Positions 21,186 to 22,878 of a stretch of DNA of 34,841 nucleotides are shown piece by piece (within the stretch, counting starts at the first letter, position 1; every line of letters begins with the position of its first letter). The notes beneath the pieces are model-generated. The model made no database searches. It was not told where the DNA came from and saw only the letters and a program-made list of their open reading frames with translations. The stretch is from Candidatus Rokuibacteriota bacterium (lineage in GTDB: Bacteria; Methylomirabilota; Methylomirabilia; Rokubacteriales; CSP1-6), in assembly GCA_016188005.1 (NCBI GenBank), contig JACPIQ010000114.1, positions 1-34,841 of the forward strand. The letters are read 5' to 3'. The translations under genes were made by a program, and so were the position numbers.

Positions 21186-21377
21186 ATGGCTCAGCGCTGC
21201 GACGTCTGCGGGAAGGGTCCCGCCGTCGGCCACCGCATCAGTCACGCCCACAATGTCACCACCCGTCGCTGGCTCGCCAACCTGGTGTCCATGCGGGCGA
21301 AGATCGGCGGGAGTGTGAAGCGCGTCCGCGTCTGCACACGGTGCCTGAAGGCCGGAAAGGTCACGAAAGTCGTGTAG
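21186..21377 (+). CDS. rpmB: 50S ribosomal protein L28
   Basis: A 63-residue basic ribosomal protein. It starts MAQRCDVCGKGP and continues with GHRISHAHNVTTRRWLANL, the standard L28 core. Two Cys-x2-Cys pairs (CDVC at 5-8 and CTRC at 51-54) indicate the zinc-binding (C+) form. AAGGAG lies 5 nt upstream of the ATG. Being monocistronic and divergent from recG is a common arrangement. A GC-rich hairpin follows the stop codon. Confidence 0.95.
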   Translation: MAQRCDVCGKGPAVGHRISHAHNVTTRRWLANLVSMRAKIGGSVKRVRVCTRCLKAGKVTKVV

Positions 21378-21380
21378 CCG

Positions 21381-21412
21381 CAGGGCGGGGGACATCACCG
21401 CCCCCCGCCCTG
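21381..21412 (+). terminator. GC-rich hairpin after rpmB
   Basis: An 11-bp perfect stem (CAGGGCGGGGG at 21381-21391 paired with 21402-21412) with a 10-nt loop starts 4 nt after the rpmB stop codon. There is no run of T after it, so it may be a Rho-independent terminator of the weak GC-rich kind or an mRNA 3-prime stabiliser. Confidence 0.5.
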
Positions 21413-21447
21413 TGCTTCTGCCGCAGGAAGTATGGAAGCATGAGTGC

Positions 21448-21473
21448 CGGTGGGAGGCCGCCACCCCCCACCG
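21448..21473. other. Hairpin between the rpmB and lysine micro-ORF transcripts
   Basis: CGGTGGG (21448-21454) pairs with CCCACCG (21467-21473), a 7-bp stem with a 12-nt loop. It lies 17 nt beyond the stop of the minus-strand 12-residue lysine ORF and 71 nt beyond the rpmB stop. It could end the minus-strand transcript; no T-tract is present. Confidence 0.3.
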
Positions 21474-21489
21474 CCCAGCAACACAGAGG

Positions 21490-21528
21490 CTACTTCTTCT
21501 TCTTCTTGGTCGCCTTCTTCTTCGCCAT
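21490..21528 (-). CDS. Poly-lysine micro-ORF (12 residues)
   Basis: The ORF reads MAKKKATKKKKK followed by TAG; every lysine codon is AAG. It is preceded by AGGAGGTGA (21536-21544), a near-perfect Shine-Dalgarno, 7 nt from the ATG. Such a strong site in front of so short a frame argues for real translation. The peptide has 8 lysines in 12 residues and resembles the basic tails of histone H1-like or ribosome-binding proteins. It may also be a stalling peptide, as lysine runs slow ribosomes. No gene follows on this strand before recG, so a classic attenuator role is unlikely. Confidence 0.5.
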   Translation of the reverse strand: MAKKKATKKKKK

Positions 21529-21547
21529 GGGTTTGTCACCTCCTTTC

Positions 21548-21563
21548 GTCAGCATTCGCTGAC
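21548..21563. other. Small hairpin before the 12-residue lysine ORF
   Basis: GTCAGC (21548-21553) and GCTGAC (21558-21563) form a perfect 6-bp stem with a 4-nt loop. On the minus-strand transcript it ends 3 nt before the AGGAGGTGA of the micro-ORF. A second short stem, CCGGA/TCCGG, lies at 21566-21579. They could separate or regulate the two micro-ORFs. Confidence 0.35.
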
Positions 21564-21595
21564 TGCCGGAGCGTTCCGGATACCCCGGGGCGCTC

Positions 21596-21664
21596 CTATT
21601 TCCGCTTGCCCTTCTTCACCGCCTTCTTCTTGCCGCCCTTCTTGACGGCCTTCTTCTTCTTCAC
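21596..21664 (-). CDS. Lysine-rich micro-ORF (22 residues)
   Basis: The ORF begins at GTG and encodes V/M-KKKKAVKKGGKKK-AVKKGKRK, with 14 lysines in 22 residues and two KKAVKK units, then TAG. GGGGGTGA (21673-21680), one mismatch from GGAGGTGA, lies 8 nt upstream, the same layout as in the following 12-residue ORF. An in-frame GTG at 21676 would add MSRT in front. It begins 44 nt after the stop of the AbiEi-like gene on the same strand and may share its transcript. The composition is like a free DNA- or RNA-binding tail. Whether it is translated is unproven. Confidence 0.5.
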   Translation of the reverse strand: MKKKKAVKKGGKKKAVKKGKRK

Positions 21665-21708
21665 GGTTCGGCTCACCCCCTTCCTGGCGCCGCGTCACGC
21701 CCGGCCCG

Positions 21709-22755
21709 CTAGTACCCCATCGCCTCGCGCCGGAGATGCAGGGCCTGCTCCCGTCCCCGGGGCTCGTAGTGATACAGATCGGCGTACAGCTGCGGCAGGC
21801 ACACCACCGGAAGTCCGCTCTTCGTGATTGGCGAGTAGAAAACCCCCTCGTCGTAGGGCCCCAGCAAGTAGACATTGCCCTCACCGACGCCACCCCGGAA
21901 GCCGAGGCTCCGGGCGATGGGCTCGGGGCTCCCCTCCACGTAGCAGTGGATGGCGGGGAAGCGCAAATTGGAGGCGACGAGCCCCGCCCCCGCGTGCAGC
22001 GTGAAGGCGTACCGGCGCCCCTCGGCATGACAGACCCGCCCGAGCTCGCCGATCAGCTTCCGGGTGATCCGCTCCGGAGCGAAGTAGGCCTCGATGTCGT
22101 TCAGCCGGTAGGCGTAGGAGTCGACCCAGCCTTCCAGCAGGTCCCCGGGCTTGACGAGATGGATGCGCTGGTGGTCCCGGCGCTCCACCCACGACACCTC
22201 CTCCAGCCGCTTCACCACGTTGTGGCAGTGGCCCAGGCTCACGTCGGCCGCCTTCGCGAGCTCCTCGAGCCGCCAGACGTGCTGGGAGTCAACCAGGAGC
22301 ACCCGGACGACCCGCGTGGCCCGGGGGGCGAACAGCGAGCGGAGCGGCCGCGTGGAGGGACGAAGGTTGGGCTTTCCCTCCTTCTCGATCAGCACGTTGT
22401 CGAAGGACAGGTGGCAGTTCCCCGAGAGGTCCAGATAGCCGAGCCCGCTCTTCTTCAGGAGCGCGGCGCTCTGGGAGCTGATGTAGGGCGCCACGGCCAC
22501 GGCATAGGCGCCAGGAACCTCCCGTCGAAGTTCGCCGAGGCGGGCAATGGCAGCTCGGATCTGCCTGGGCTGCCCCAGGGGAGTGGTTTCCAGGATCACG
22601 ATGTGTTCCACCGAGCCCAACGTGAATCTGACAAGCAGATCCACCGCTTGAGTGCCAGTCTGGAAGTCTGGGGCCTCCTGCCAGTCGCCGGCACGCGAGA
22701 AGAGATCGCGGAGCCGCTGGGCTGCCAACCTTCGTATGTCGCGGGACTTAGACAT
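21709..22755 (-). CDS. AbiEi-like winged-helix regulator (type IV antitoxin family), no toxin partner seen
   Basis: A 348-residue protein resembling the AbiEi/DUF-type transcriptional antitoxin family. The N-terminal about 130 residues look like a degenerate PD-(D/E)XK-type domain (VDLLVRF, then HIVILETTPLGQPRQIRAAIARL, then VAPYISSQSAALLKKSG and GYLDLSGNCHLSF, about 110-122). Residues about 155-200 form a winged helix (WRLEELAKAADVSLGHCHNVVKRL, then a basic wing). The C-terminal part (HAGAGLVASNLRFPAIHCYVEG) is the family's sensor-like domain. The start ATG lies downstream of the predicted promoter and operator, with AAAGG just ahead; an upstream TTG would place the promoter inside the gene. 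No AbiEii-like nucleotidyltransferase toxin follows; instead come two poly-lysine micro-ORFs. Confidence 0.7.
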   Translation of the reverse strand: MSKSRDIRRLAAQRLRDLFSRAGDWQEAPDFQTGTQAVDLLVRFTLGSVEHIVILETTPLGQPRQIRAAIARLGELRREVPGAYAVAVAPYISSQSAALLKKSGLGYLDLSGNCHLSFDNVLIEKEGKPNLRPSTRPLRSLFAPRATRVVRVLLVDSQHVWRLEELAKAADVSLGHCHNVVKRLEEVSWVERRDHQRIHLVKPGDLLEGWVDSYAYRLNDIEAYFAPERITRKLIGELGRVCHAEGRRYAFTLHAGAGLVASNLRFPAIHCYVEGSPEPIARSLGFRGGVGEGNVYLLGPYDEGVFYSPITKSGLPVVCLPQLYADLYHYEPRGREQALHLRREAMGY

Positions 22756-22763
22756 CCTTTCAC

Positions 22764-22805
22764 TTGTTCCATAGGTTTCAGCGTGTGCTGAAACGATAGG
22801 AACAA
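22764..22805. promoter_or_regulatory. Two-tier 42-bp palindromic operator of the AbiEi-like gene
   Basis: The inner arms GTTTCAGC (22775-22782) and GCTGAAAC (22787-22794) are a perfect 8-bp inverted repeat around GTGT. The outer arms TTGTTCC (22764-22770) and GGAACAA (22799-22805) are a perfect 7-bp inverted repeat centred on the same point. The 4-nt links between tiers do not pair. The element spans the -10 and the start region of the predicted promoter and ends 9 nt before the ATG, where a repressor would block transcription. Autoregulation is known for AbiEi-type antitoxins. Confidence 0.65.
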
Positions 22806-22821
22806 ACGAAACTCCTGTCAA
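22793..22821 (-). promoter_or_regulatory. Promoter of the AbiEi-like gene
   Basis: On the minus strand a perfect TTGACA (22816-22821) and TATCGT (22793-22798, 4 of 6) are separated by 17 nt. The -10 is interleaved with the palindromic operator. The surrounding about 90 nt are much richer in A and T than the rest of the window, including seven As at 22823-22829. Confidence 0.6.
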
Positions 22822-22878
22822 CAAAAAAAGTTGCGCGGGACCGGCTGAGACGAGTAGGTGGAACAGCGGGACGGTGTG

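Follow-up and report, generated by a model that had tools for sequence, protein, structure and literature searches.

Lysine-rich micro-genes with strong ribosome-binding sites in Rokubacteriales and other bacterial phyla as candidate sources of nucleic-acid-binding oligolysines

Two minus-strand micro-ORFs behind an AbiEi_2-like gene of a Candidatus Rokuibacteriota bacterium, located in a contig of 34,841 nucleotides (the whole stretch analysed, hereafter the window), probably belong to a widespread class of protein-coding micro-genes, each giving rise to a strongly translated short polycation that would most likely act on nucleic acid through its charge. It also seems reasonably probable that these genes form a class of autonomous micro-genes, spread over several phyla and not recognised before, from which ribosomes make an oligolysine of 9–16 residues, a genetically encoded polyamine-like or detached H1-tail-like counter-ion of nucleic acid, and that they have been missed because they lie far below the usual length limit of gene finders. 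The proposed unit would consist of a strong Shine–Dalgarno (SD) sequence pairing with the 16S 3′ end over almost its full length, a start codon 5–9 nt further on and about 9–16 codons (up to 38) of the form M/V-(A)-KKK-small residues-KKKK. Its predicted product, with a net charge of about +8 to +10, is essentially devoid of acidic, aromatic and large hydrophobic residues. If this is true, few conserved classes of autonomous protein-coding genes would be smaller than this one, which occurs in several bacterial phyla and escapes annotation. Cells would then encode bare oligolysine, through which one could test the extent to which nucleic acid or ribosomes can be organised by charge alone, and H1-type tails and micro-peptides might be connected by an evolutionary route. 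Genes of 9–16 codons can be found via synteny, strong SDs and terminators. No published description of such micro-genes was found in the open-access literature, subscription papers and preprints being outside the scope of the search.

The micro-ORF pair and its AbiEi-like neighbour in Rokubacteriales

A first-pass annotation had described two minus-strand micro-ORFs of 22 and 12 residues, each located 7–8 nt after a strong SD, and both are seen in the window, their SDs being near-perfect, together with the following features:

21709..22824, minus strand: AbiEi_2-like winged-helix gene, 44 nt upstream of mORF1
21673..21682, minus strand: SD of mORF1, AAGGGGGTGA, 8 nt spacing to the start
21596..21664, minus strand: mORF1, GTG start at 21664, TAG end at 21596, 22 aa, VKKKKAVKKGGKKKAVKKGKRK and stop
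21536..21546, minus strand: extended SD of mORF2, AAAGGAGGTGA, 7 nt spacing to the start
21490..21528, minus strand: mORF2, ATG start at 21528, TAG end at 21490, 12 aa, MAKKKATKKKKK and stop
about 21446-21474: second hairpin, by inspection
21381..21412, minus strand: GC hairpin CAGGGCGGGGG...CCCCCGCCCTG between mORF2 and rpmB, by inspection; possible shared terminator of the pair
21186..21377, plus strand: rpmB (putative ribosomal protein bL28), convergent, named from its ORF sequence

The peptides had been called almost pure lysine, encoded by AAG only. They are lysine-rich instead (13 K and 1 R among the 22 residues of mORF1, 8 K among the 12 of mORF2), and the final lysine codon of mORF1 is AAA. 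The claim that the architecture is unlikely to arise by chance is borne out: a K-rich, SD-preceded micro-ORF occurs in 0 of 100 dinucleotide shuffles of the window, and in a phylum-wide search the pattern was present in 60/95 genomes versus 0/95 for the reversed pattern. A chance origin was rejected on these grounds.

Orthologous Rokubacteriales loci were collected by protein search with the AbiEi-like gene alone, K content not being a criterion. All 27 carry at least one lysine-rich micro-ORF with a strong SD just downstream of this gene, and at each of them start codon, SD and frame are preserved, so that the comparison of relatives proposed by the first-pass annotation did not overturn the ORFs. 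A tandem pair is found at 25 of these loci and a single micro-ORF at the other two (L017 and L026); at L009, the first copy is longer and K/R-rich. Orthologues of mORF1 at the same site measure 10–23 aa and are preceded by GGGGGTGA or GGAGGTGA. The flanks are variable, but SD and frame are kept and length differences correspond to whole codons. In relatives of mORF2, codon position 3 is more variable than positions 1 and 2, an entropy test that is biased because the sequences were preselected for K content, the weight resting on the anchored tests. The position of rpmB downstream of the pair is likewise kept in relatives, and its convergent orientation means that no same-strand gene directly follows the pair. 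Both 3′ hairpins are recognisable by inspection in L009, L017 and L026 as well. The transcript of the AbiEi-like gene would carry the Rokubacteriales pair at its 3′ end; elsewhere, copies have a promoter and a terminator of their own.

The AbiEi_2-like gene has orthologues in 26 of the 26 other Rokubacteriales genomes searched. It resembles the AbiEi_2 component of AbiE type IV toxin–antitoxin (TA) systems, from which the locus appears to differ in several respects: the match to Pfam AbiEi_2 remains below threshold (E=0.0013, 19.5 bits against a cut-off of 21), PADLOC returned weak matches only, no AbiEii-like neighbour was recognised by eye among nearby ORFs, and micro-ORFs occur elsewhere without AbiEi. 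The AbiEi/poly-lysine unit posited earlier holds as a linkage conserved within Rokubacteriales and fails as a general rule; the link is local to this order. A general link was rejected, as micro-genes elsewhere stand alone or beside serS-secA, apgM-exonuclease, nrdG-smc and other genes. In L060-L063 (Methylomirabilales-like), the tandem pair is found downstream of a winged-helix gene and, in L063, of a HEPN-like gene, an arrangement that parallels the AbiEi_2-like gene ahead of the Rokubacteriales pair. Although these neighbours invite the reading that the peptides are toxins or TA components tied to the AbiEi-like gene, such a role is scarcely credible: most other contexts contain no TA gene, TA cargo would not be expected to show such strong constitutive-type signals or to be conserved vertically in synteny, and the peptides have no membrane segment.

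Peptide chemistry, codon use and likeness to known basic proteins

The peptides are composed of K, A, R, G, T, V, P and S (K 55–73%, A 15–32%) with a median net charge of +8 to +10, and K/R swaps preserve charge. In AT-rich hosts, AAG accounts for 88 of 153 lysine codons in the micro-ORFs versus 593 of 2573 in the ordinary genes found at these loci (P about 1e-18), an excess that would be expected if lysine runs need translation without slippage. The anti-SD duplex has a mean energy of −18.6 kcal/mol for micro-ORFs versus −5.8 for ordinary ORFs, a gap somewhat overstated because ordinary-ORF starts were taken naively. From SDs of this strength we infer a high level of translation, which would yield an abundant peptide.

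The SD, unusually long and conserved, and the 3′ hairpins conserved in both CPR and Rokubacteriales are also compatible with a function at the RNA level only, the extended SD being a 30S-binding decoy or an mRNA stabiliser and the codons incidental. This is very improbable, however, since the peptide chemistry survives synonymous and K/R changes, length shifts by whole codons, and the preference for AAG in AT-rich genomes agrees with lysine runs being translated.

Among the roles listed by the first-pass annotation, a histone-like nucleic-acid-binding peptide is the best. The peptide would most likely act through its charge in the manner of a histone-H1 C-terminal tail detached from its protein, and would bind nucleic acid and neutralise it, the target being the chromosome or a structured RNA, for instance rRNA. 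Binding is suggested by oligolysine chemistry and by the H1-tail-like relatives. Like bacterial histone-H1-like proteins (Hc1/Hc2 type; NF038053) and the eukaryotic H1 C-terminal tail, the micro-peptides are Lys/Ala/Pro-rich polycations without acidic residues, and the longest micro-gene relatives at two loci read like H1 tails. They differ from H1-like proteins in being 9–16 aa rather than a long tail, and in having neither a globular part nor a model match above cut-off: Pfam and NCBIfam scans of the window peptides and the longer forms returned no family model at that level, the best NCBIfam match being that of a 35-aa form to NF038053 (E=0.15; 12.3 bits against a cut-off of 80). A homology test to H1-like proteins is prevented by the low complexity of the sequence. 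For a chromosomal protein, moreover, the binding of a 9-mer of lysine may be too weak.

Very short, basic and strongly translated ribosomal proteins are known in bTHX and eL41, and a MAKKK start is common to several ribosomal proteins. The micro-peptides might therefore be structural or accessory ribosomal micro-proteins of the bTHX or eL41 kind, their lysines filling rRNA grooves; the small basic composition is in keeping with this, and the extreme SD strength and constitutive-looking stand-alone units match ribosomal-protein genes. We consider this unlikely. bTHX and eL41 have defined conserved sequences that are Arg-rich or mixed, whereas in the micro-peptides charge and small residues are conserved and no fixed sequence is. 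Moreover, a range of 9 to 38 aa at one locus is unlike a defined rRNA-binding fold, there are two or three copies per genome, and about half of the Pedosphaerales loci described below have none.

Copies elsewhere in the genome and in other phyla

The genome of the window harbours a third copy at another locus (MAKKKAAKKKKK), preceded by the promoter TTGACA-N18-TAGAGT. In other Rokubacteriales, a lone copy is situated between a divergent radical-SAM gene and a convergent nrdR (neighbour genes beyond the window being named from their sequence) and hence constitutes its own transcription unit. With nrdR as anchor, again irrespective of K content, the micro-gene is present in 9/20 Rokubacteriales loci.

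A scan of genome contigs yielded at least 80 loci; among the matches listed, most carry a true micro-ORF, and the phyla represented include Verrucomicrobia, Planctomycetota, Omnitrophota, Nitrospirota, Chloroflexi, Patescibacteria, Actinobacteria and others. One host with a matching micro-ORF, Pseudonocardia sp. KRD291, is in culture. Contexts are clade-specific: serS-secA, apgM-exonuclease, nrdG-smc, NCS2 permease-mraZ and phosphoglucomutase-ftsK. Of the 24 loci inspected, many have a TTGACA-type promoter, and a credible intrinsic terminator is seen at over half of them, the call for L153 being too weak to be counted; autonomous units with their own promoter and terminator occur in several phyla. 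In a planctomycete (L163:5916-6109, minus strand), a single promoter and a single terminator enclose three tandem, near-identical KKKGGKKK cistrons spaced 75 bp apart. In Pedosphaerales, where the exonuclease served as anchor, likewise irrespective of K content, 15/30 loci contain a micro-ORF encoding peptides of 13-35 aa (e.g. MTAKKKVVAKKPAAKKPAAKKKK; longer, H1-tail-like forms are KKPAAKKPAAKKKK and the 35-aa form). Its absence from the other half tells against the nucleic-acid-binding reading too, as does the fact that most hosts are metagenome-assembled. Viral contigs gave just 6 matches, so that there is no apparent sign of a phage element. A record titled Nanoarchaeota (L092) displays the same serS and micro-gene arrangement as Levybacteria and is possibly a misbinned contig.

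The serS-secA copies and possible leader functions

In Levybacteria (the CPR order of G100), gaps were located by alignment with the SecA N-terminus as anchor and without selection for K content. Among the 29 intact serS-secA gaps, 27 contain a micro-gene, which in all 27 is followed by an intrinsic terminator and in 16 has a strict -35/-10 motif. The K-ORF finder matched 22 times inside the secA gap; over the other 91.6 kb of sequence it gave 0 matches. The peptides at this locus measure 9-38 aa, include K/R variants such as MARKKAKRKKRKKRKK and MAKKRKKRK, and in L301 take a 38-aa, H1-tail-like form.

With a short ORF, a strong SD and a nearby terminator, and with CPR copies ahead of secA, the micro-genes are akin to attenuator leader peptides (his, trp, SecM-secA). 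They differ from these in being self-contained transcription units, often without a same-strand downstream gene, and their peptides differ in K/R interchange and in having no signal peptide or arrest motif. No regulated gene is seen downstream on the same transcript: the neighbour is a convergent rpmB or nrdR, and the CPR copies are upstream of secA, which however lies behind the terminator. A leader sensing lysine codons, i.e. charged tRNA-Lys, for transcription attenuation could account for Lys-codon runs followed by a terminator at many loci. Such a sensor is hardly to be credited, as Arg freely replaces Lys and the genes downstream are either unrelated to lysine (secA, smc, ftsK, mraZ) or on the other strand; codon-sensor attenuation was rejected for these reasons.

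Lysine runs slow ribosomes. A strong SD might thus load ribosomes whose passage is slowed by polylysine in the tunnel, the parked ribosome controlling expression or stability of the same mRNA, and the CPR stop codon borders directly on a set of switch-like hairpins and a terminator, with secA beyond. This mechanism is nonetheless quite improbable: no same-strand gene follows the window pair or the nrdR-type copies, copies are equipped with a promoter and terminator of their own, inspection reveals a separate -10-like box for the gene that follows the CPR copy, and relatives lengthen into H1-tail-like peptides. The stalling-peptide and toxin or decoy roles raised by the first-pass annotation are likewise poorly supported, many copies being stand-alone units and K/R swaps preserving charge, not codon. 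A strongly translated polycation acting on nucleic acid stays the preferred reading.

Between the micro-ORF stop and the terminator, L284-L313 share a conserved 3′-UTR hairpin, UACCAAUUGAUCA(G/A)UUGGUA, and an upstream half-repeat, UUGGUAA, is located at the stop codon, making a mutually exclusive switch with this hairpin possible. No Rfam match at gathering score was obtained for the hairpin in the loci scanned. This extra conserved element suggests some RNA-level function as well, which counts against the preferred reading. In many CPR loci of the same set (L284-L313), a TATGnTAAAAT box occurs 8-20 nt ahead of the secA start, suggesting that secA may have its own promoter and a near-leaderless mRNA.
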